Shown piece after piece: positions 5,533 through 27,534 of a DNA stretch of 38,890 nucleotides. The stretch comes from Cyclobacteriaceae bacterium (GTDB lineage: Bacteria > Bacteroidota > Bacteroidia > Cytophagales > Cyclobacteriaceae). The DNA is taken from the NCBI GenBank assembly GCA_016787725.1, contig JAEUTZ010000012.1, positions 1 to 38,890 on the forward strand, given 5' to 3'. A program made the position numbers and the translations under genes. The first letter of the stretch is position 1; every line of letters begins with the position of its first letter. The notes beneath the pieces were generated by a model that worked only from the letters and a program-made list of their open reading frames with translations, made no database searches and was not told where the DNA came from.

Positions 5533-7944
5533 TTACTCGTACCGCAGTGAATTGACCGGATTTACTTTGGCTGCCTTTATGGATTGGTAGGAGACCGTAA
5601 TCCAGGCGATTACGATTGCACCCAACGCACAGGCTGCAAAAAGCACCGGATTCAATTCGATACGATACATGAATTCTTTTAACCACCAGTCGGCCGCGAA
5701 CCACCCTACCAGGAGGGCCGGTATAATGGAAATCAACACCAACTTGGTAAACTCTTTGGAAAGCAGCACAGTGAGACTGAATACGGAGGCACCCATGGCC
5801 TTGCGGACCCCAATTTCTTTGGTGCGTTGTTCGGTGGTAAAGGCGGCCAGTGCAAACAATCCCAAACACGCAATGAAGATGGCCAGCATGGCGAACGTAG
5901 TGAAGATGTCGCGCAGGCGCATTTCACTGCGGAAGAGGGAATCAAAGTTCTGATCGAGGAAGGTGTATTCGAACGGCTCGCCCGGAGCCAACTCCTTCCA
6001 CTGCTTTTCGATGGCTGCGACTGCGGTTTGCGGATTGCCTTCGTAGCGCACCATCATAATCCGTGAATAGTCTACCAGGCGGATGACCATGGGCCGGACG
6101 GTGTTGCGCAAGGATTCAAAGTTGAAGTCTTTCACTACGCCAATCACGCGGATGTTTTCCGGAGTTGTGCCATTGAAATCAGTGAGCTCGGCCGACAGCG
6201 GATTTTGGAACCCATATTCCCGCACGGCTGCTTCATTAATTATGGCTGCTGTTGAATCGGTGGCAAACTCCCTTGAAAAGAAACGACCATCCTTCAGTTC
6301 AAACTTCATCACATCCAGGTGATCCCAATCGGCATAATACAGGCCTACCAGATGATCTACGTCCTTCCCTTTCTCGCGCACCACTGTGGTGTTGTTAACA
6401 CCCGGAAAAACATTGTTTGTATAACTAGCTTTCACAATGCCGGCTTGGGTCTCCAGGGCTTCCTTGAAGGCCCTCCGGTTTTCTCCTAATCGGGCAGTTC
6501 CTGTAATGGAAATCACATTCTCCTTGTCGAGGCCCAGATTTTTATTTTGCATGAATGTGAGTTGTTGAAAGACTACCATGGTGGCTACAATCAAAAACGT
6601 AGAAACTGCAAACTGGAGTACCACCAGTGAACTGCGGATCCCTTTGCTCTTCATGCCCGCCCGCACCTTGCCTTTCAAAACTTCCACGGGTTTATAGGCC
6701 GTGAGATAAAACGCTGGATAGCTCCCGGCCACCAGGCCTACCACCATAATTAAGACCACCGCTGCCCCGATAAAGGTGGGGCTCATCAGGGCGTGTAAGG
6801 TGAGTTGCTTACCGGAAAGCAAATTGAATTGCGGTAGCAACAAGAAGCTGACCGCCAACGCCAGAGCAATCGCAATAAAACTATAGATGAATGATTCGGA
6901 CAGGAATTGAAAGATCATCTGACTGCGCTGCGAGCCCAGCGTTTTACGCAAGCCCACTTCTTTTGCCCGGCCGGCAGAGCGGGCCGTTGACAAGTTCATA
7001 AAGTTAATGCACGCCAGCAAAAGAATAAACAATCCCACACCGGAGAAAATATATACGTAAGAAATATCTCCTCCGGGTTCAATATCATCGGGTAAGCCGG
7101 CCTTCAGGTGGGAGTCGGCAATCGGATAGAGGTAATAACTATAGATGCCCCCCTGCTTGCGGAACTCGTCAAACTTGATTCCTAACCCCTGCTCCAGTTC
7201 CTTGCCTACATATTTCTCAACAATGTCTTCGAGTTTATCGTTGATTTCCGCTATGGAAGTTGCGGGGTTTACCTTCACGTACGTCTGGATGGAATTCCCG
7301 GTCCAGCCCTGGAAGAAATCATCTTCCACCGTAACATAAGAGATGATGGCATTAAAATGAAAATGAGAGTTCGATGGAGTTTCTGTAGTAATACCGGTTA
7401 CCTTACAAGCCATCTTGTCCACACCCACTACCAACGTTTTGCCTAAGGCATCGGTGGTTCCGAAATATTTTTTTGCCAGGGCTTCGGTAATCACAATGCT
7501 GTTGGGCTCAACCAGAGCCGTTTTAGGATCCCCCTGCACCAGTTCAAAAGAGAAGAACTCATAAAAGTTGGAATCGGAATAGAAAATATTGTCTTCTGTA
7601 AAGGAAATCTCCTCATTGCGAAAAGCCATACCTGCCCCGCGGGTGGCCGGAATGAGACGCAGCACCTCCTCCACCCCCGGGATTTCATGCTGCATGGTGG
7701 GCCCTACCGGTAAACTGGAATTGGAGGTAAAGATCTCCTGGCCGGAAATCTTACCGTGCAGTGCAATGCGGTGAATTTTTTCGTAATCGCGATGAAATTT
7801 ATCATAGCTCAATTCGTCCTGAACATAAATGAATATGAACAGGCAGCAGGTCATCCCGATCACCAGGCCGATGATGTTGATGGCGGCAAAGAATTTGTGC
7901 TTGAGGATGTTGCGTAAGGCGACTTTAAAATAGTTTTTAAACAT
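5533..7944 (-). CDS. FtsX/MacB-type ABC transporter permease (first copy)
   Basis: An 803-residue inner-membrane permease with the doubled MacB layout. There is an N-terminal transmembrane helix near 18-42, a periplasmic MacB_PCD domain, and a first FtsX domain at about 285-455 with NLSTARSAGRAKEVGLRKTLG. A second periplasmic domain and a second FtsX domain near 680-800 follow, the latter with TKEIGVRKAMGAS and KVNPVNSLRYE at the end. Family members are mechanotransmission-type ABC components that work with a LolD/MacB-like ATPase and a membrane fusion protein, both encoded just upstream in transcription order. It lies 247 bp after the second permease gene, so it may have its own promoter. 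Substrate unknown. Confidence 0.92.
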   Translation of the reverse strand: MFKNYFKVALRNILKHKFFAAINIIGLVIGMTCCLFIFIYVQDELSYDKFHRDYEKIHRIALHGKISGQEIFTSNSSLPVGPTMQHEIPGVEEVLRLIPATRGAGMAFRNEEISFTEDNIFYSDSNFYEFFSFELVQGDPKTALVEPNSIVITEALAKKYFGTTDALGKTLVVGVDKMACKVTGITTETPSNSHFHFNAIISYVTVEDDFFQGWTGNSIQTYVKVNPATSIAEINDKLEDIVEKYVGKELEQGLGIKFDEFRKQGGIYSYYLYPIADSHLKAGLPDDIEPGGDISYVYIFSGVGLFILLLACINFMNLSTARSAGRAKEVGLRKTLGSQRSQMIFQFLSESFIYSFIAIALALAVSFLLLPQFNLLSGKQLTLHALMSPTFIGAAVVLIMVVGLVAGSYPAFYLTAYKPVEVLKGKVRAGMKSKGIRSSLVVLQFAVSTFLIVATMVVFQQLTFMQNKNLGLDKENVISITGTARLGENRRAFKEALETQAGIVKASYTNNVFPGVNNTTVVREKGKDVDHLVGLYYADWDHLDVMKFELKDGRFFSREFATDSTAAIINEAAVREYGFQNPLSAELTDFNGTTPENIRVIGVVKDFNFESLRNTVRPMVIRLVDYSRIMMVRYEGNPQTAVAAIEKQWKELAPGEPFEYTFLDQNFDSLFRSEMRLRDIFTTFAMLAIFIACLGLFALAAFTTEQRTKEIGVRKAMGASVFSLTVLLSKEFTKLVLISIIPALLVGWFAADWWLKEFMYRIELNPVLFAACALGAIVIAWITVSYQSIKAAKVNPVNSLRYE

Positions 7945-8191: not shown

Positions 8192-10594
8192 TTATTCATT
8201 GCGCAGGGTTTTCGTGGGATTGAGGGAAGCTGTTGAAATAGTTTTGTATCCTACCGAAGCAATTGCTATGAGTACCATGGCGGCAACCGAAACAAGCAGC
8301 GTAACAATACCCAGTTTCAGATAATATTCCCAAATGGAATCCATGAGCGAATCGGCCATCAGGTACCCCAGCCCACTCCCGATGATGGTGGCTATGCCCA
8401 GGTTGACAACAAACTCAAAATTGATGACCCGCGCAATGTTGAAGACAGAAGCACCCAATACCTTTCTGACGCCAATCTCTTTCATCTTCTTTACAATGTT
8501 AAGCGACACGAGCGAGAACATGCCGATGCCCGTCATGAGGGCCGCAAAAAAACCCAGGAAGCTAAACATGGTAACAATGTTCTTGTTGATGTCATTGGAC
8601 TCCTGCAATTCCTGATCGATCATCTGCCCATTATACACGGTGTTGGGGAATACTTCCTTCCACTTCTTTTCCATGAATTCATTCACGGTAGCAATTTTTT
8701 TAGGGTCGGTTTTGATCACTACCTGTTGGTATTGTGCCGGGGCCGCATAACGGATCATCAAGGGCTCGATGGGCTCCCACAAGGCGCGGGCGTAAATATT
8801 CTTAACCACCCCGATCACATACAATTGAACGGTGTCCATCCACACCAGGCGCTTGCCAATGGGATTATCGGTCCAGCCATATTGCTTTACTAGTTCTTCG
8901 GTTACCAGCACCGACTCCTTACGATCCGTCTCTGAATCCTTTTGAAAGTTTCGCCCGGCCACCAGTTTCATGTCCATCACTTCAAAGTAGTTATCCCCGA
9001 TATCGAAAATGTCCACTTCGCGTTCGATGGATTCATATTTCACCGGATCGTTGTACCAGGAGTTGGCAATGTGGTGCTTGGTACCGGCAATCAATTCGAT
9101 GTCTTTGTTTGTAGAAAGGGCATCGCGGTAGGTATTGTATGCCCCTTCGTTGTTCACCCACACCGAAATAGCGCCATGCGTAGCAAAGCCGAGGTCGTAA
9201 TTTTTCTGGTACTCTCCATTCTGATAGAAGGCCACGCCCATGATGATGGAGAGCAGGGAGATGACAAACTGGCCGCCCAACAATACACGGGTAAACCAGT
9301 TTGTGCCTCCGAATTTTGCCTTGCCCTTTAAGATACTCACTGGTTCAAACGAAGTCACATAAAAAGAGGGATAGCCTCCGGCAATCAATGCGGTGAGCAA
9401 GAGTAACACAAATAAAAACGCTAAGAATCCGATGTTCTCGGCATACACTAATTTCAATTCCAGCCACGGCCACAACGAATCATAGGCGGGCACCAACCAC
9501 TCGGCCAGTAGCAAGCCGGCTGCCAGACCCAGAATACAGAGGATCAGGTTCTCCCCTAAAAACTGGAAGATCAATTGCGAACGCATGCCGCCCATTACTT
9601 TGCGGATCCCGATTTCCTTCAACCTGCGGCTGGAGATGGCGATGGATGTATTGGTGAAATTAAAACACGCGAGCAACAACAACATGCCCGCCATGATGGC
9701 CGGAACCAGAATCGCTTCATTGGGAATACCGCCCCGTAACCAATCGTTGCTTACCCGTGGGTTTGACCGGTTGCGTTTCATCATCCCGTCAAAGTTCTCC
9801 AGGTAATAAGAAGTGATTTTAAAATCTTCGCGGGCCTGGTTTTGCGGTTCGATGTAATTCTGAAGTTGCTGAGATACCATGGCGGCATCCGCAGGGTCAT
9901 CGATTTGCAGGAACAAGGTATTCCAGCGCTTCCAGCTGTTTTCATTATTTTCGGGATCGAGGTTGATGTCCCAGAAGTTGTCGAACTGGGTCGCAATATC
10001 AAACCGGAAGCTTGAGTTATGTGGCAACTGTTTGAAGACCCCCCCTATTTCAAACTCTTTCGGCCTTCGTACTCCGTCTTTTCCCAGTACAATCTGCGTA
10101 ATGGTTCGACCCACTACATTTTCCTCGTTGAAGTATTTTAATGCCACCTCATCGCTGATGAAGACTTTGCTTTTATCGTAGAAGTTTGTAAACGTACCGT
10201 ACTTCAGCTCATAGGTAAACAAATCGAAGAAAGCCGAATCCACGAATACCATGCCGGTGCCAAATACTTCTTCTCCAATGCGGATGTCGCTGTACGAGGA
10301 AACATAGCGCACCACCTTCGAAACTTCCTTCACATTTTGCTTTACGTAGTTTCCCAACGGCATGGGGGCCATGCCGTACCGTTCGTTATGCCCCTGAAAT
10401 TCGCGATGAAACTGAACCCGGTAGACTTTGTCTGCATTCAACTGTGTTTTGTCCCAATCGGCAGCAAATTCCCAATTAACATAGGCCACCACACAGCAGG
10501 CTATGGCAATGCCCATCCCAAAAACGTTGATCAGAATAAACAGTTTGTTTTTCGCGAGGCTGCGAAGGGTGATGAGTAAATAATTCTTAATCAT
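8192..10594 (-). CDS. FtsX/MacB-type ABC transporter permease (second copy)
   Basis: An 800-residue permease of the same doubled architecture as its neighbour, though clearly diverged. It has an N-terminal helix near 18-42 and a periplasmic domain. The first FtsX domain is near 290-470 (SSRRLKEIGIRKVMGGM, LIAGGYPSFYVTSFEPVSILKG). A second periplasmic domain and a second FtsX domain at the C-terminus follow (KKMKEIGVRKVLGAS, ending SLNPTKTLRNE). The two permeases probably form a heterodimer or alternate partners for the one ATPase in the cluster (inference). A sigma54-like promoter lies about 60-75 bp upstream, with a dyad further up, tying this gene to the response regulator at 13218. A terminator separates it from the ATPase gene. 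Confidence 0.92.
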   Translation of the reverse strand: MIKNYLLITLRSLAKNKLFILINVFGMGIAIACCVVAYVNWEFAADWDKTQLNADKVYRVQFHREFQGHNERYGMAPMPLGNYVKQNVKEVSKVVRYVSSYSDIRIGEEVFGTGMVFVDSAFFDLFTYELKYGTFTNFYDKSKVFISDEVALKYFNEENVVGRTITQIVLGKDGVRRPKEFEIGGVFKQLPHNSSFRFDIATQFDNFWDINLDPENNENSWKRWNTLFLQIDDPADAAMVSQQLQNYIEPQNQAREDFKITSYYLENFDGMMKRNRSNPRVSNDWLRGGIPNEAILVPAIMAGMLLLLACFNFTNTSIAISSRRLKEIGIRKVMGGMRSQLIFQFLGENLILCILGLAAGLLLAEWLVPAYDSLWPWLELKLVYAENIGFLAFLFVLLLLTALIAGGYPSFYVTSFEPVSILKGKAKFGGTNWFTRVLLGGQFVISLLSIIMGVAFYQNGEYQKNYDLGFATHGAISVWVNNEGAYNTYRDALSTNKDIELIAGTKHHIANSWYNDPVKYESIEREVDIFDIGDNYFEVMDMKLVAGRNFQKDSETDRKESVLVTEELVKQYGWTDNPIGKRLVWMDTVQLYVIGVVKNIYARALWEPIEPLMIRYAAPAQYQQVVIKTDPKKIATVNEFMEKKWKEVFPNTVYNGQMIDQELQESNDINKNIVTMFSFLGFFAALMTGIGMFSLVSLNIVKKMKEIGVRKVLGASVFNIARVINFEFVVNLGIATIIGSGLGYLMADSLMDSIWEYYLKLGIVTLLVSVAAMVLIAIASVGYKTISTASLNPTKTLRNE

Positions 10595-10654: not shown

Positions 10655-10669
10655 CCAAGAAATGTGCCA
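10655..10669 (-). promoter_or_regulatory. Sigma54-like promoter for the second permease gene
   Basis: The minus strand reads TGGCAC-ATTTC-TTGG followed by CAA. This matches the -24/-12 consensus TGGCAC-N5-TTGC except for the last base, and is the same pattern as the promoter at 13002-13017. The predicted leader is about 50 nt. Confidence 0.6.
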
Positions 10670-10740
10670 CACTACAAAACCGGCTTATCTCCACGCAATT
10701 CCAGAAAAAAGAAACCACGCACTTCTGTTTTGTTCGCCAG

Positions 10741-10758
10741 CGTACAGGGTTGTGTACG
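10741..10758. promoter_or_regulatory. Dyad CGTACA-N6-TGTACG, possible enhancer site
   Basis: Six-base perfect arms with a 6-bp spacer. It lies 72-89 bp upstream of the sigma54-like -24 element, almost exactly where the dyad at 13090-13105 stands relative to its promoter. This fits an NtrC-type activator site by position; sequence similarity between the two dyads is limited to the GTnC...GnAC edges. Confidence 0.4.
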
Positions 10759-10887: not shown

Positions 10888-11577
10888 TTAAATATGGAAT
10901 TGCTCCTTGATGTTTTCGGTTACCACCTTACCGTCAAAGAGGTTTACAATGCGGTGCGCGTAGTTGGCATCGTACGGTGAGTGGGTTACCATGATCACGG
11001 TTGTGCCCTCCTCATTCAATTGCGATAACAACTTCATCACTTCTTCGCCATTGGCCGAATCCAGGTTTCCCGTAGGTTCGTCAGCCAGAATCACTTTGGG
11101 CTTGGCCACAATTGCTCTCGAAATGGCCACGCGCTGCTGCTGTCCGCCCGATAACTGTTGCGGAAAGTGATTTCTACGATGCATGATGTTCATGCGTTCC
11201 AATACCTCTTCTACTCTTTTCTTGCGCTCATCGGATGGCACCTTGAGGTAAAGCAGCGGCAACTCAACGTTTTCAAATACCGTCAGTTCATCAATCAAAT
11301 TGAAGCTCTGGAATACAAAACCAATCGAGCCTTTGCGCAACTGAGCGCGCTGACGTTCAGAATACTTGGCTACTTCATGCTCACCGAAGAAATATTCGCC
11401 TCCGGAGGGGTTATCAAGCAATCCCAGGATGTTCAACAAGGTGGACTTACCGCATCCGGAGGGACCCATGATGGCCACAAATTCACCATCCTTGATTTCG
11501 AGATTGATGTTGTTGAGGGCTGTAGTTTCGACTTCTTCGGTCGTATAGACTTTTTCGAGATTTTTTAATTTGATCAT
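10888..11577 (-). CDS. ABC transporter ATP-binding protein, LolD/MacB type
   Basis: A 229-residue nucleotide-binding subunit. Walker A is GPSGCGKST (38-46), the Q-loop lies in FVFQSFN, the signature is LSGGQ (142-146), Walker B is VILADEP with Glu167, and the H-loop His is 199. Length and the motif TTALNNINLEIKDGEFVAIMG are typical of the LolD/MacB subfamily, which drives FtsX-type permeases. It is the only ATPase in the cluster, so it probably serves both permeases. It follows the membrane fusion protein gene by 123 bp, and a terminator lies beyond its stop. Confidence 0.96.
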   Translation of the reverse strand: MIKLKNLEKVYTTEEVETTALNNINLEIKDGEFVAIMGPSGCGKSTLLNILGLLDNPSGGEYFFGEHEVAKYSERQRAQLRKGSIGFVFQSFNLIDELTVFENVELPLLYLKVPSDERKKRVEEVLERMNIMHRRNHFPQQLSGGQQQRVAISRAIVAKPKVILADEPTGNLDSANGEEVMKLLSQLNEEGTTVIMVTHSPYDANYAHRIVNLFDGKVVTENIKEQFHI

Positions 11578-11700: not shown

Positions 11701-12948
11701 TCAATTCAGGATTAATACTTCATTGTTGCCAAAATTCTCGTAGGAAGAAGTGATTACACGGTCGCCCGGTTGCAGTCCCTCCAGCACTTCAAAGTTTTCA
11801 GAATTCTTACGGCCCAGTTTAATATTTCTGCGCACGGCCTTGTTGTCGTCTTCCAATACAAACACCCAGTTGCCGCCTGTGTCCTTATAAAAACCGCCCA
11901 CCGGCAACAATAATTCTTCCGATGCCTGACCTAGTTCGATGCGCATGCGCAACGATTGGCCTCTGCGAATTCCCTGCGGAGTTTCGCCCTCGAACTCCAT
12001 ATCAACTTCGAACCGGCCGTTTTGAATGTTGGGATAAATGTAGGTGATGGCCAACCGGTAATCTTTGTTTGCGAAACTGGTGGAGGCGGGCAACCCTACC
12101 GAAATTTTAGGCAGATACAATTCATCAATGGGTACCCGCACTTTATAGCTGCCGACAATGTCCACCTGCCCCAACCGCTGACCTTGAGAAACTGCCTGGC
12201 CTATTTCCCAATGCGGAGTGGAAAGTTGACCATCAATCGGGGCCCGGATGATCAGGTTGTCGAGAATTTTACTCAGGTTATTCAAACTAATCATCATCTT
12301 CTGCTCCGATTCTGCCGTGAATTTCAACTGGCGGATGCGGTCGATGGAGTCGTTGCGATATACTTCGTAGGTGATTCGTTTGCGTTCCAGGTTATATCTA
12401 TAATCCGCTTCTGTTCGTTCAAAATCCTGTTTAGAAATCAGCTTTTTCTCATACAATTGTTTTTGACGCTGGTACTGAGGTTCGAGAATCGCAAGCTGAT
12501 TATCAATCAAAGCCAGTTGCTGACGCTGATCCAGGTCGTTGCGCATGATGTTCAACTTTGTTTCGCGCGCGCGGTTAATACTTTCGTTGAAGGAAGCTTC
12601 CTGCTGCAACACGGTTAGCTCGCGATTCAGGTTCGTGAGTTCCAGAATCACATCGCCTTTCTTCAGCAGCTGACCACTTTCGCTGACGATGCGTTTGATG
12701 TTACCACCTTCGATGGCATCGAGGTATACCGTGCGGGCCGGTTCAACGGTACCGGTTTGAGGAATGAATTCTTTAAACTCCCCACGCTGTACGGTGGATA
12801 CGGTGAGCTTATCGCGATCCGTTTTAAAGGTCGATCTGCGATCGGCAAAAATAAATTGATACCCAACAAAACTAACGAGCAGGGCAATACCCAAATAGGT
12901 TCCGATTCTTTTAACAGTCCAGGTCTTCTTGGCAATCTTCTTATCCAT
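11701..12948 (-). CDS. Membrane fusion protein (HlyD/MacA-like) of the ABC system
   Basis: A 415-residue periplasmic adaptor. It has an N-terminal transmembrane anchor (about 15-32, TYLGIALLVSFVGYQFIFA) and a beta-barrel/lipoyl half (GTVEPARTVYLDAIEGGNI). The long helical hairpin spans about 100-210 (QQEASFNESINRARETKLN to ITYEVYRNDSIDRIRQLKF). The second lipoyl half is LIIRAPIDGQLS, and the C-terminal barrel and membrane-proximal domain contain RRGQSLRMRIELG and VLEGLQPGDRVI. Such proteins bridge an inner-membrane MacB-like complex to an outer-membrane factor; no TolC-like gene is in the window. It is the first gene of the minus-strand arm, behind a sigma54-like promoter, and diverges from the response regulator gene. 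Confidence 0.9.
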   Translation of the reverse strand: MDKKIAKKTWTVKRIGTYLGIALLVSFVGYQFIFADRRSTFKTDRDKLTVSTVQRGEFKEFIPQTGTVEPARTVYLDAIEGGNIKRIVSESGQLLKKGDVILELTNLNRELTVLQQEASFNESINRARETKLNIMRNDLDQRQQLALIDNQLAILEPQYQRQKQLYEKKLISKQDFERTEADYRYNLERKRITYEVYRNDSIDRIRQLKFTAESEQKMMISLNNLSKILDNLIIRAPIDGQLSTPHWEIGQAVSQGQRLGQVDIVGSYKVRVPIDELYLPKISVGLPASTSFANKDYRLAITYIYPNIQNGRFEVDMEFEGETPQGIRRGQSLRMRIELGQASEELLLPVGGFYKDTGGNWVFVLEDDNKAVRRNIKLGRKNSENFEVLEGLQPGDRVITSSYENFGNNEVLILN

Positions 12949-13001: not shown

Positions 13002-13017
13002 CCAACAAGCGTGCCAA
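13002..13017 (-). promoter_or_regulatory. Sigma54-like promoter for the membrane fusion protein gene
   Basis: The minus strand reads TTGGCAC-GCTTG-TTGG followed by CAA, a full match to the -24 element and three of four at -12. The leader would be about 40 nt. The same TGGCAC-N5-TTGGCAA string occurs before the second permease gene. Confidence 0.62.
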
Positions 13018-13089
13018 TGGGCATTATGACCAGAAAAGGACCTTTTAAGGCCTACAAGGTTGGTTCGCTCGTTCAGATGTGAACGTGCC

Positions 13090-13105
13090 TGTCCGATTTC
13101 GGACA
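13090..13105. promoter_or_regulatory. 16-bp dyad TGTCCGATTTCGGACA, likely activator site
   Basis: Perfect 7-bp arms around TT. It stands 73-88 bp upstream of the minus-strand sigma54-like -24 element and 64-79 bp upstream of the plus-strand one, the classical enhancer distance for NtrC-type activators. The core CCGATTTCGG recurs at 13162-13171. The adjacent regulator gene is the obvious candidate ligand (inference). Confidence 0.55.
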
Positions 13106-13113
13106 AGAGTTCT

Positions 13114-13121
13114 TATATTTG
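13114..13121 (+). promoter_or_regulatory. Possible housekeeping -7 element of the regulator gene
   Basis: TATATTTG matches TAnnTTTG. The -33 region would overlap the 16-bp dyad, so binding there could also repress this promoter. No good -33 element is seen. Confidence 0.35.
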
Positions 13122-13168
13122 TTTGTACAGTACTTCAAAATCGCATCAAAACACGCGTTTCCCGATTT

Positions 13169-13183
13169 CGGCACCCATATTGC
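13169..13183 (+). promoter_or_regulatory. Sigma54-like promoter for the response regulator gene
   Basis: CGGCAC-CCATA-TTGC has the exact GG-N10-GC spacing of sigma54 promoters. Transcription would start about 23 nt before the ATG at 13218. Its -24 half overlaps the second CCGATTTCGG core, suggesting feedback control. Confidence 0.5.
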
Positions 13184-13217
13184 CCACGAGCGGACAGGTA
13201 AACCCCCACGAACTGAT

Positions 13218-14603
13218 ATGTCTGAGTCCAAACAAGGAAAAATACTGATCGTTGACGATAACGAAGACCTGTTGAAAGCCGCGAAGATGTACCTGAAGCG
13301 GTATGTGGCCCAGGTTGATATTGAGAAAAATCCGGAAGCCATTCCCGCCCTGATGGGCAACGAAGATTACGATGTGATTTTACTCGACATGAACTTCACC
13401 AAAGATGTGAGCAGCGGCAGTGAAGGGTATTATTGGCTGGAGCGTATCCTCACCATTGATCCTTCGGCTGTGGTGGTATTGATTACCGCTTATGGCGATG
13501 TGCAGATGGCGGTGAAAGCGATTAAAGCCGGAGCCACAGATTTTGTATTGAAACCCTGGGAGAATGAAAAGTTGCTGGCCACCATTTACAGTTCCATGCG
13601 GCTGCGCGAATCGCGCGACCAGGTGCAAACGCTGAAGAGTAAAAATCAGGAAATCAACCAGGCGCTGAATGAAAAATACAGCGACATCATCGGGCAAAGC
13701 CAATCCATGCAGCGGATCTTTCAAACCATTGAGCGCGTAGCCCAAACCGATGCCAACGTATTAATCTTAGGGGAAAACGGAACGGGTAAGGAACTGATTG
13801 CGCGGGCCATCCATCGCAACTCGGCCCGTAAAAATGAATCGTTTGTGTCGGTGGATTTAGGCTCGATCACAGAGACACTTTTTGAAAGCGAATTATTCGG
13901 TCATAAGAAAGGTTCGTTTACGGATGCCAAAGAAGATCGTGCCGGCCGTTTTGAGTTGGCCAATCAGGGTACCCTGTTTCTGGATGAGATCGGAAACCTT
14001 TCGATGCCCTTGCAGGCAAAACTGCTGACGGCCATTCAGAATAAGAAAGTGAGCCGGGTGGGTTCCAATAAGGATACGCAAATCGATTTACGTTTGATTT
14101 GTGCCACGAACATGCCCCTGTATGAAATGGTGAAGGAAAACCGGTTTCGTCAGGATTTGCTGTATCGCATCAATACCATTGAAATTGAGATCCCCCCCCT
14201 GCGTGAACGGCTTGAGGACATTCCATTGTTGGCCAATCATTTTTTAAAACAATACACTTCCCGCTACGGAAAAAACATTTCCAAAATCAGTGAAGGAGCC
14301 ATGTCACGCATGACCAAACACCCCTGGCCCGGCAACATCCGGGAATTGCAACATTCATTGGAGAGGGCAATTATCTTAAGCAACTCTTCGGTGCTGCAAC
14401 CGGAGGACTTCAACTTTTCGGCTCCTGCAACGAAAGAAAATGATCAGCAGATTAATCTCGATCAGTTTAATCTGGACGAGGTGGAGAAACTCTTGATCCG
14501 GAAGGTGCTGAAGAAATACAATGGCAATATTACACAGGCTGCAGCCGAACTGGGATTAACCCGGTCTTCGCTGTACCGCAGGCTTGAAAAGCACGGACTC
14601 TGA
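13218..14603 (+). CDS. Sigma54-dependent response regulator, NtrC family
   Basis: Three domains in 461 residues. The receiver has acidic Asp13/Asp14, phospho-acceptor Asp57, Thr90 and Lys112, with an unusually long loop after Asp57. The AAA+ domain has Walker A GENGTGKE (185-192) and Walker B LFLDE (253-257). The C-terminal Fis-type helix-turn-helix (NITQAAAELGLTRSSLYRRL) binds DNA. The sigma54-contact loop, usually GAFTGA, reads GSFTDA at 232-237. I chose the ATG at 13218: the frame is open upstream, but those 33 extra residues show no receiver homology and contain the promoter and dyad. The kinase gene follows 63 bp later. It probably activates the divergent membrane fusion protein gene and the second permease gene. 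Confidence 0.93.
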   Translation: MSESKQGKILIVDDNEDLLKAAKMYLKRYVAQVDIEKNPEAIPALMGNEDYDVILLDMNFTKDVSSGSEGYYWLERILTIDPSAVVVLITAYGDVQMAVKAIKAGATDFVLKPWENEKLLATIYSSMRLRESRDQVQTLKSKNQEINQALNEKYSDIIGQSQSMQRIFQTIERVAQTDANVLILGENGTGKELIARAIHRNSARKNESFVSVDLGSITETLFESELFGHKKGSFTDAKEDRAGRFELANQGTLFLDEIGNLSMPLQAKLLTAIQNKKVSRVGSNKDTQIDLRLICATNMPLYEMVKENRFRQDLLYRINTIEIEIPPLRERLEDIPLLANHFLKQYTSRYGKNISKISEGAMSRMTKHPWPGNIRELQHSLERAIILSNSSVLQPEDFNFSAPATKENDQQINLDQFNLDEVEKLLIRKVLKKYNGNITQAAAELGLTRSSLYRRLEKHGL

Positions 14604-14666: not shown

Positions 14667-16013
14667 ATGCAATTTAATGACTTTCGGTTTCGGGTAGCAT
14701 TTCGGGTGGTGTTGATAGGCACCACCATGGCCCTGTTTATTTACATGGTGAGCAAGCCGAACATGATCTTTGCTGCGGTCCTTACTTCGTTGATCATCAT
14801 TGGACAACTCATTGAATTGTACCGCTTCACCTCACTGACGAATCGTAAATTGACGCGCTTTCTGGAGTCGGTAAAGTATTCGGATTTTATTTCGGGCTTC
14901 GCCCACGACAATAAACTGGGAAGAAGTTTCCGCGAACTGAATACGGCCTTCAATGAAGTGTTGGAAGCCTTTCGCAAAGCAAGAACTGAAAAGGAGGAAC
15001 ATTGGCAATACCTCAACACGATTGTGCAACAAGTGCGTACCGGTATTATTTCATTCGACCCGGAAGGCAGGATTCAGTTAATTAACCCGATTGCAAAAAA
15101 GTTTATTGGAATTCCAAATCCAAAGAATATCCGCGAGTTGGCCACCAGCAATCCCAAACTTTTTGCAGCCCTGATGGACGTTCAATCCGGCAAGAGCACG
15201 TTGTATAAATCCGGAGGCGAATATTTGCTTACGTTACAGTCTACTGAATTACGGATCCGCGGAAACACAGTAAAACTGGTCACCCTTCAAAACATTCAAA
15301 CCGAATTACAAAAGCAGGAGCTGGAAGCGTGGCAGAATTTAACGCGCGTACTGCGGCATGAGATCATGAACTCCATTACCCCTATTTCCTCCCTCACCTC
15401 CACCCTGCGCGAAATTCTGGACCATGACCTGGTGAAAAAGAACAGCCATTATGAATTGAAAACCGATGGTGCGGAAGACTTGCGCGAAGGATTGAACACC
15501 ATTGAGGGCCGGAGCAAGGGATTGATTAAATTCATTGACGCGTACCGCGAATACACCTCCCTGCCGCAACCGAAACTAAAAACGATCCGATTGATGGATC
15601 TCATTGAGAAAGTAGCACAGTTGCTCAAACCGGAAATCAAGAAAACCAATATTCAGTTTGACTACTCGTGCGATTCAGAGTACCTCACGCTTCAAGCCGA
15701 TGAAGAGATGATCGAGCAGGTGTTGATAAACCTTTTAAAAAATGCGATGGAAGCCCTGGAGCCCAACCCGCAGCCACGAATCATCCTGAAGGGTACGTAC
15801 GATAACAATGCAGTAATCATTCAAATCACCGACAACGGACCGGGCATCATTCCGGAGGCGATCGAGCGGATTTTCGTTCCGTTCTTTACCACTAAGAAGA
15901 CAGGATCCGGAATTGGACTTGCCCTCTCCCGTCAGATCATGCAAATGCACAACGGGACCCTGACGGTGGCATCGGAACCGGATGTAAACACGACATTTAC
16001 GTTGCGGTTCTAA
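14667..16013 (+). CDS. Sensor histidine kinase, NtrY-like
   Basis: A 448-residue membrane kinase. Two transmembrane helices (about 13-28 and 33-51) are joined by only a few residues, so there is almost no periplasmic sensor and the signal may be sensed in the membrane or cytoplasm. A linker and PAS-like domain (about 112-210, TGIISFDPEGRIQLINPIA) follow. The H-box LRHEIMNSITPISSL has His231, and the ATPase domain has NLLKNAMEAL (N box), DNGPGI and TGSGIGLALSRQIM (G boxes). It is the cognate kinase of the regulator immediately upstream. Its stop codon overlaps that of the convergent gene by four bases. Confidence 0.93.
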   Translation: MQFNDFRFRVAFRVVLIGTTMALFIYMVSKPNMIFAAVLTSLIIIGQLIELYRFTSLTNRKLTRFLESVKYSDFISGFAHDNKLGRSFRELNTAFNEVLEAFRKARTEKEEHWQYLNTIVQQVRTGIISFDPEGRIQLINPIAKKFIGIPNPKNIRELATSNPKLFAALMDVQSGKSTLYKSGGEYLLTLQSTELRIRGNTVKLVTLQNIQTELQKQELEAWQNLTRVLRHEIMNSITPISSLTSTLREILDHDLVKKNSHYELKTDGAEDLREGLNTIEGRSKGLIKFIDAYREYTSLPQPKLKTIRLMDLIEKVAQLLKPEIKKTNIQFDYSCDSEYLTLQADEEMIEQVLINLLKNAMEALEPNPQPRIILKGTYDNNAVIIQITDNGPGIIPEAIERIFVPFFTTKKTGSGIGLALSRQIMQMHNGTLTVASEPDVNTTFTLRF

Positions 16014-26373: not shown

Positions 26374-27534
26374 GTGCCGAAAGTTCTCATCATCGAAGAC
26401 GAAGCCAGCATTCGGGCCGTCTTAAAAGATATCCTTAAAGATCAAAAGGAATTAAAGCTGGAAGTAGACGAGGCGAAAGATGGAGTTGAAGGATTATCCC
26501 GCCTGGAGCAGGATCATTACGAGGTGGTGTTTTGCGATATCAAAATGCCAAAAATGGATGGCATGGAAGTATTACAACAGGCAAAATCCAAGGGAATATC
26601 CTCCACCTTCATTATGATCTCGGCTCATGGCACCACCGAGATTGCCGTAGATGCAACCAAACTGGGGGCTTATGATTTCCTGCAAAAGCCACCGGATTTA
26701 AACCGGCTTTTGATTACGCTCCGCAATGCGCTGGACAAAAACAATCTGGTTAAGGAAACCAGGTCGCTCAAGAAAAAAGTGTCTCAGAAATACGAAATCA
26801 TTGGCGCATCGCAAGCCCTTACCGGGGTGATGGAAATGATTGAAAAGGTAGCCCCCACCGATGCCCGGGTATTGATCACCGGTCCAAATGGATCAGGTAA
26901 AGAGTTGGTAGCACGGCAAATTCATGAGCGAAGTGCACGCTGCCACGGGATGTTTGTGGAAGTAAACTGCGCAGCTATTCCCTCTGAACTGATTGAAAGT
27001 GAGCTATTCGGTCACGAGAAAGGTTCCTTTACCTCTGCCATCAAACAACGCATCGGAAAATTTGAGCAGGCGGAAGGAGGTACCCTCTTCCTGGATGAAA
27101 TCGGGGATATGAGCTTGGCTGCCCAGGCCAAGGTATTGCGCGCGCTGCAAGAAAGTAAAATTACCAGGGTGGGTGGCGATAAGGATATTGTTGTGAATGT
27201 GCGGGTTCTGGCTGCCACCAATAAAGACCTCAAGAAAGAGATTGCCGAGAATCGGTTCCGGGAGGATCTCTATCATCGACTCTCTGTCATCGTGATCAAA
27301 GTGCCAGCCCTTCAGGATCGAACAGAGGATATACCCTTGCTCGTTGAAAAATTCCTTGGCGATATAGCCCTGGACTACGGAAACAAAAAGAAAGAAATCA
27401 CAAAAGAGGCCCTGGAGTTGCTCAAGAAACACCCATGGACTGGGAACATCCGTGAGCTGAGGAACGTGACTGAACGGTTGGTAATTATGAGCGGTGATCC
27501 GATTGGAACCGCAGACGTGAAGAAATACCTTTAA
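26374..27534 (+). CDS. Sigma54-type response regulator without DNA-binding domain
   Basis: A 386-residue two-domain protein. The receiver has Asp9, phospho-acceptor Asp55 and Lys105. The AAA+ domain has Walker A GPNGSGKE (170-177) and Walker B LFLDEIGD, and ends with the usual PWTGNIRELRNVTERLVI segment. It stops a dozen residues later, without the Fis-type helix-turn-helix that other NtrC proteins carry. The sigma54-contact loop GAFTGA is GSFTSA (217-222). The start must be GTG, since a stop lies three codons upstream. HTH-less members of this kind are found in Bacteroidota, so this is a family trait rather than a truncation (from knowledge of the group). It lies 37 bp after rnpB, with no kinase gene next to it. 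Confidence 0.9.
   Translation: MPKVLIIEDEASIRAVLKDILKDQKELKLEVDEAKDGVEGLSRLEQDHYEVVFCDIKMPKMDGMEVLQQAKSKGISSTFIMISAHGTTEIAVDATKLGAYDFLQKPPDLNRLLITLRNALDKNNLVKETRSLKKKVSQKYEIIGASQALTGVMEMIEKVAPTDARVLITGPNGSGKELVARQIHERSARCHGMFVEVNCAAIPSELIESELFGHEKGSFTSAIKQRIGKFEQAEGGTLFLDEIGDMSLAAQAKVLRALQESKITRVGGDKDIVVNVRVLAATNKDLKKEIAENRFREDLYHRLSVIVIKVPALQDRTEDIPLLVEKFLGDIALDYGNKKKEITKEALELLKKHPWTGNIRELRNVTERLVIMSGDPIGTADVKKYL

Follow-up and report, generated by a model that had tools for sequence, protein, structure and literature searches.

Conserved paired operators and sigma54-type promoters probably place one adaptor-ATPase exporter core and dispersed orphan permeases under common NtrC-type control in a Cyclobacteriaceae bacterium

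Which genes answer to the control region that lies between the divergently transcribed genes for a periplasmic adaptor and an NtrC-type response regulator, here called R1? The region is part of the stretch of 38,890 nucleotides that we analysed (the window), which belongs to a genome of 4.21 Mb in 27 contigs. An initial annotation had read it as a compact switch serving one export module. The nearest R1 orthologs (93-94% identical) come from assemblies labelled mostly as Cyclobacteriaceae metagenome-assembled genomes. The genes around the region and the elements discussed below are collected in Table 1.

Table 1. Genes and predicted control elements of the switch, with coordinates in the window except for the R2 pair
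Feature	Sequence or form	Position	Strand	Remark
R1, NtrC-type response regulator		13218-14603	+	receiver, AAA+ sigma54-activator domain with Walker motifs, lid, Fis-type HTH
Histidine kinase		14667-16013	+	neighbour of R1; domain match and hydropathy
HlyD-type periplasmic adaptor (membrane fusion protein)		11701-12948	-	
ABC ATPase		10888-11577	-	separate protein
Permease 1	duplicated MacB-core/FtsX	8192-10594	-	800 aa
Permease 2	duplicated MacB-core/FtsX	5533-7944	-	803 aa
Sigma54-type promoter of adaptor-ATPase genes	TTGGCACGCTTGTTGG	13017-13002	-	pattern GCCAA-N5-GTGCCA
Sigma54-type promoter of regulator-kinase genes	CGGCACCCATATTGC	13169-13183	+	pattern CGGYAY-N5-TTG
Operator A	CGTTCAGATGTGAACG (GTTCA-N4-TGAAC)	13070-13085		core exact in 65/76, one mismatch in 11/76
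Operator B	TGTCCGATTTCGGACA (TGTYCG-N4-CGRACA)	13090-13105		exact in 36/76, one mismatch in 40/76
Possible third operator	TGCCCACGAGCGGACA	13181-13196		over plus -12/+1 region
TAnnTTTR element	TATATTTG	13114-13121	+	just behind operator B
Intrinsic-terminator-like hairpin	16-pair stem	10823-10788	-	gap between ATPase and permease 1 genes
Operator of permease promoter	TGTACGCTGGCGAACA	10731-10746		-24 GG at a distance of 71 bp
Sigma54-type promoter of permease 1	TGGCACATTTCTTGG	10655-10669	-	behind terminator-like hairpin
R2 regulator-kinase pair		L145:7440-8813 and 6098-7450		contig C27, own genome

The control region was compared with its counterparts at the best 80 loci that carry an R1 relative (75-94% identity). 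The adaptor gene is divergent from the regulator at 75 of these loci, and the window together with these 75 gave a set of 76 intergenic regions. Cultured environmental relatives that show this arrangement include Chryseolinea serpens (L053) and Ohtaekwangia koreensis (L046). Left out were four loci whose contigs end early (L031, L064, L075 and L083) and one in which the adaptor match is absent (L028); the region of L085 begins 13 codons within the adaptor match. All four sequence elements that the initial annotation had named lie where it placed them. Two of these are sigma54-like promoters facing both ways, and each pattern was found to be exact in 73 of the 76 regions. The plus promoter has the form GG-N10-GC, while the minus promoter reads GG-N10-GG and thus departs in its last base (-12 GG, not GC). 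With the promoter and dyad patterns, which were drawn up after the alignment had been viewed, letter shuffles (20 per region) passed the limits, an exact match for promoters and no more than one mismatch for dyads, in 0% of cases for the minus promoter, 0.13% for the plus promoter, 0.33% for operator B and 0.92% for operator A. The expectation that promoters and dyad would be conserved in relatives was thus borne out across the 76 regions.

The annotation had placed a single perfect 16-bp dyad in the centre of the region. This dyad, operator B, is present and conserved with at most one mismatch in all 76 regions, but it consists of two 7-bp arms round a TT centre, with 14 of 16 positions paired, and it is half of a pair, since operator A lies 20 bp away. 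The centre-to-centre spacing of A and B is 20 bp in every one of the 76 regions. Operator A, the possible third operator and the promoter of permease 1 had not been recorded in the annotation. A second CCGATTTCGG core, claimed to overlap the plus -24 element (13162-13171), exists as a string but occurs in only 6 of the 76 regions and was rejected as an operator for want of conservation. The exact 16-mer of operator B has a single occurrence in the 4.21-Mb genome. Near-copies with two mismatches at five other places were likewise rejected as targets, as six sites (B included) stood against six in the reversed control per strand, and no operator pair within three mismatches was found at their loci. 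In a class-wide sample of 60 genomes, strong R1 relatives were present in nine, the own genome included, with 16 matches besides R1 and R2, a second regulator described below. A divergent adaptor accompanied four of these 16 and the operator pair was clear (at least 28) at three, being weaker or absent at the others, so that we do not claim the code for the whole class. Judged by comparison of sequences, the control region is genuine and conserved and belongs to a known kind of module, the NtrC-type enhancers; R1 would bind to it, and both promoters would be served from it.

The distances between operators and promoters fall into classes that lie about one helical turn apart. The minus -24 GG lies 53 bp from operator A in six regions, 61-65 bp in 69 and 75 bp in one. 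The plus -24 GG is separated from operator B by 62-64 bp (six regions), 71-74 bp (62), 85 bp (one), 105-106 bp (three) or 116-118 bp (four). At the promoter of permease 1, taken up below, the corresponding distances are 50-52 bp (four), 59-63 bp (24), 71-73 bp (four) and 80-82 bp (four). Each distinct distance was entered once per promoter into a circular resultant. The plus promoter gave its highest values (0.74-0.83) at 10.5-11 bp and the permease promoter its own (0.75-0.76) at 10-10.6 bp; for the minus promoter the maximum was broad, with 0.73-0.77 across 10.5-12 bp. The pooled resultant at 10.5 bp was reached by 0 of 20000 random draws, a test that is generous in that neighbouring distances in one class were counted apart and that the classes are heritable and not independent by descent. 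Such phased distances match the prediction of looping from an operator on one helix face. Two R1 dimers, phosphorylated by the adjoining kinase, would bind operators A and B, which lie about two helical turns apart on the same face of the DNA, and would assemble into an active ring. This ring would loop to the sigma54-RNA polymerase waiting at either promoter, and one enhancer pair would in this way activate transcription to both sides, into the adaptor-ATPase genes and into those of the regulator itself.

Two minor elements may refine this control. At the position of the possible third operator the pattern TGYCCR-N4-YGRACA occurs with at most two mismatches in 31 of the 76 regions (0.9% of shuffles). 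Lying over the plus start, it could act by repression and cap the self-activation of R1. The TAnnTTTR element, found no more than 22 bp from operator B in 42 of the 76 regions (4.7% of shuffles), resembles the -7 element of Bacteroidota primary-sigma promoters. A primary-sigma promoter just behind B may supply basal transcription in many relatives and be shut off by the bound activator.

The claim that the switch is self-regulated through an NtrC-type regulator gains from the domain composition of R1 and from the presence of an RpoN gene in the genome (one Sigma54_DBD match, E 1.1e-56), and self-regulation is plausible. The canonical sigma54-contacting loop of such activators is GAFTGA. An exact search of R1 for this motif gave no match; its loop reads GSFTDA and that of R2 reads GAFTDA. 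R2 is 62% identical to R1, is headed by a double operator and a sigma54 site of its own, and has a neighbouring kinase that resembles the kinase of R1; no MacB_PCD match lies within 29 kb of it. The HTH ends of the two regulators are nearly identical (LTRSSLYRRLEK in R1 and LTRASLYRRMEK in R2), and hence a single operator class may serve both. From its HTH end and its double operator, R2 may take the place of R1 at these operators or act there alongside it, and R2 may itself belong to the same regulon. The window also encodes a second NtrC-like protein (26374-27534) with receiver and sigma54-activator domains and, by Pfam, without a Fis-type DNA-binding domain. By hydropathy alone, the membrane helices of the kinase beside R1 appear to be confined to its N-terminal part, with very little of the protein in the periplasm. 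Such a form is also that of kinases which sense via a partner transporter, for example BceS.

Permease 1 and permease 2 each carry two MacB-core and two FtsX stretches in one chain, and sequence profiles match their halves to MacB structures. In the gap between the ATPase and permease 1 genes, a terminator-like hairpin, whose stem is the longest among six such sites in 2.8 kb (3.1 expected), is followed by a sigma54-type site with its own operator. Homologous gaps were taken from the window and from 65 of the 80 loci, and 65 of them were compared after one longer than 600 bases had been excluded. In 36 of these 65 gaps, the window's own counted, both site and operator occur with no more than one mismatch each, and thus permease 1 appears to have a promoter of the same kind as the divergent pair.

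The same code was sought in front of the other permease genes. The genome holds 55 MacB_PCD matches, of which the best 30 were examined; these 30 entries include repeat matches (L131 lies within the gene of L122) and single permeases. The 260 bases before each start were given a composite score from sigma54-site and operator matrices built from orthologous loci with the window excluded. A composite of at least 21 was obtained for eight of the 30 entries (L127, L125, L120, L122, L121, L108, L109 and L110), with 35.2 for L127, which is the window's permease 1, 25.8 for L109 and a borderline 21.1 for L110, whose promoter is weak. The operator and sigma54 code hence heads seven dispersed MacB/FtsX-type permease genes, one of them borderline. 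An unselected 400-kb stretch supplied 299 background ORFs of 150 aa or more, of which a single one reached 20, and this was R2 with 38.1; the next scored 18.0. Fisher tests of the dispersed entries against this background gave p = 1.5e-7 at a limit of 20 and p = 1.9e-6 at 24, the start being the ATG nearest the expected place for permeases and the most upstream ATG for the background. Of the seven dispersed genes, four (L125, L120, L122 and L121) have a clear second operator 20 bp off, and in five the sigma54 site begins 40-46 bp before the start codon. Six of the dispersed permeases align over their full length with those of the window.

The composite is absent from the remaining 22 of the 30 own-genome entries. 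Some of these follow a headed gene, others are single permeases or repeat matches, and five are of a longer type. These longer permeases, with frames of 866-907 aa (L107, L111, L118, L128 and L129), never scored above 10.1. No sigma54/operator composite was found for permease 2 (L113, score 7.8), and a separate promoter for this gene was rejected. Three duplicated permease genes (L121, L112 and L123) stand in a row at C27:569638-576893 of the own genome; L112 has an in-frame TGA and therefore looks like a decaying copy.

A search of the relatives gave 59 permease loci (L172-L230), of which 14 that had no long ORF where one was expected were skipped. The 45 scored loci include two from the own genome that had already been counted and two (L190 and L219) with identical results; 16 of the 45 lay above the 99% shuffle limit, and a gap separated scores of 24.6 and 16.0. 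Among orthologs of the C15 permease with at least 50% identity, the code precedes 11 of the 13 scored, own copy included and three further truncated copies left unscored. Among the 11, L174 and L181 match the promoter weakly. L177 and L196, the orthologs that missed, each follow another permease gene, at 48 and 109 bp, and L201, the permease ahead of L177, has a composite of 40.2. The view of a switch for one export module thus held as to the divergent sigma54-type region and the adaptor, ATPase and FtsX set, but proved too narrow because the code also precedes permease 1, the seven dispersed permeases and R2. The recurrence of one code at permease 1 and at dispersed duplicated permeases suggests a single regulon. 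The adaptor-ATPase core would then be produced along with permeases beside which no ATPase gene lies.

The ATPase of the window has 50 matches in its own genome, two other genes being 48-53% identical to it. The adaptor has no close paralog, its next-best match in the genome being just 24% identical. The median identity is 95.6% for the ATPase (71 loci) and 72% for the kinase, and it is 50 and 55% for the best matches to the two permeases. The ATPase is hence the best-conserved part compared, as expected for a hub that fits many partners. Around the seven dispersed permeases headed by an operator, no ATPase match was found up to a distance of 10 kb, and the nearest lie at about 11 and 12 kb. 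Permeases with an adjacent ATPase match do occur outside the regulon, for example in the pairs C18:347775/C18:348557, C15:399428/C15:398196 and C27:350188/C27:350808.

Adaptor and ATPase were then searched for in 24 genomes, own included, with limits of E up to 1e-30 and 1e-90, respectively. Among the 17 genomes with at least 13 permease matches the adaptor was found in 15 and the ATPase in 14, once each except for the adaptor of G015, which gave two partial matches on two contigs that cover different parts. Where found in permease-rich relatives, adaptor and ATPase are thus single-copy at the limits used, a statement that for the ATPase is valid solely at the strict E-value limit. Adaptor-bearing genomes have 13-43 permease matches, with several of these counts standing for at least the number given; the seven from other families that lack the adaptor have 1-6. 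A rank test among genomes at least 90% complete gave p of about 0.0005, with 10 of the 11 adaptor-bearing genomes there from one genus. As 14 of all 15 adaptor-bearing genomes belong to the genus of the window, kinship confounds the co-occurrence of core and permeases; G019, from another family, is the one independent case. In two genomes of the same genus, G004 (77% complete, 18 permease matches) and G006 (87% complete, 42 permease matches), neither the adaptor nor a close ATPase was found, and the ATPase was not found in G003 (77% complete). G016 has an ATPase of 63% identity without the adaptor and four permease matches.

The dyads could be repressor sites, bound by some other dimeric factor, on the primary-sigma promoter behind B, with the sigma54-like sites being secondary. 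B would overlap the upstream element of that promoter wherever the TAnnTTTR element follows it. Yet this element is missing in 34 of the 76 regions, in which both operators and both sigma54 sites remain, and the permease operators hold phase to sigma54 sites; we consider this explanation very improbable. More weight, though still little, is due to the possibility that R1 governs a merely local switch, consisting of the divergent pair and permease 1, and that R2 or other NtrC-type proteins with a similar operator govern the dispersed permeases. R2 does have the double operator and sigma54 site described above, further NtrC-type proteins are present in the genome, and the dispersed operators are mostly of the letter type of B (CGTCCG-N4-CGGACG and the like) and not of A. 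Against such a division stand the nearly identical HTH ends, by which one operator class may serve both regulators, and the operators at R1's own promoters, which cover both letter types. We think it unlikely that control is split in this manner, and we note that R1, R2 or both could be the binder at the dispersed operators. The reading that we regard as probable is common regulation of one adaptor-ATPase core and a set of orphan permeases by an NtrC-type enhancer pair.

Co-regulation would not by itself mean that the permeases share the core. The operators may be real and each dispersed permease may nevertheless use another, unlinked ATPase. With 50 ATPase matches in the genome, two of the other genes being 48-53% identical to that of the window, and with some non-regulon permeases adjoining an ATPase match, other partners would be at hand. 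On the other side, the seven operator-headed dispersed permeases have no such match within 10 kb, and it is the ATPase of the window that bears the regulon code and that is conserved far above the permeases. Separate ATPases therefore seem to us somewhat unlikely, if less so than a split between regulators. The wider proposal is that the single-copy core energises an interchangeable fleet of permeases and that core, regulators and permeases are made together on one envelope signal. We put this forward tentatively, as a possibility on which we stop a little short of an even judgement, because the co-occurrence follows kinship and because a clear second operator was seen at four of the seven dispersed genes.

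Parts of this arrangement are familiar. In the NtrC enhancer of glnA, paired operators also lie on one helix face, with a -24/-12 promoter at looping distance, self-regulation and a primary-sigma promoter overlapped by activator sites. The region described here differs in its operator sequence, in having one pair between two divergent sigma54-type promoters, in its targets, which are an adaptor, an ATPase and permeases instead of nitrogen genes, and in the loop GSFTDA in place of GAFTGA. BceRS-BceAB likewise has a kinase almost without extracellular part encoded beside an FtsX-type transporter, but its regulator is OmpR-type, unlike the NtrC-type regulator and sigma54-type promoters of the window, for which transport sensing is a possibility. 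MacAB shares the HlyD kind of adaptor and the permease halves that match by profile, whereas here the ATPase is separate and not fused and two permease halves are joined in one chain. As to the DarBCD exporter of darobactin, NCBIfam puts the adaptor nearest DarC, the ATPase nearest DarD and the permeases nearest ADOP and then DarB. The scores stay below the curated cut-offs (81 and 168 of 700 bits for DarB, 194 of 450 for DarC and 290 of 375 for DarD), the adaptor passing that of the general RND_mfp subfamily, and several permeases would be served by each core, unlike in DarBCD. The ADOP family comprises duplicated permeases with many paralogs that lack an adjacent ATPase gene. The permeases studied here are likewise duplicated and present in many copies, and the seven operator-headed dispersed ones have no ATPase match within 10 kb. 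Against the ADOP model (NCBIfam TIGR03434) the window permeases reach 231 and 281 bits, below the cut-off of 622, and of the family traits many paralogs are present, while the window permeases and some others do have an ATPase nearby. A further difference is that co-regulation here indicates a candidate ATPase partner.

A link between sigma54 and such permeases has already been published. In its accessible text, a 2025 survey reports sigma54 enriched before COG0577 ABC-type antimicrobial-peptide permeases in Bacteroidia and terms this the first such evidence (PMC12316311). Sigma54-type promoters ahead of FtsX-like permease genes in Bacteroidota are common to that survey and to our analysis. 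The survey works at the level of gene-family enrichment, and the accessible part of it does not describe an activator, an operator, phasing, a single adaptor-ATPase core or a dispersed regulon. Neither the operator code and the shared-core regulon nor anything closer than this survey was found in a literature search that covered few subscription journals.

The larger point is the regulon, in which one exporter core would share its control code with scattered permeases that have no adjoining ATPase gene. To our knowledge, no ATPase that drives duplicated orphan permeases has been established. The accessible texts of two genome reports show how numerous such proteins can be, with 28 and 33 duplicated orphan permease copies, annotated as 'of unknown function', in two Dyadobacter strains (PMC11573002) and 102 in an acidobacterial genome (PMC10564751). 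The control code singles out candidates for the ATPase, the adaptor and the pair of regulators and delimits a set of targets, and the question of the ATPase thereby becomes testable by one deletion and transcript mapping. Sigma54 regulons in this group can also be annotated with the operator consensus and the spacing rule that the code provides. If the wider proposal is true, the duplicated 'orphan' permeases would not be orphans but swappable specificity modules on a common motor.
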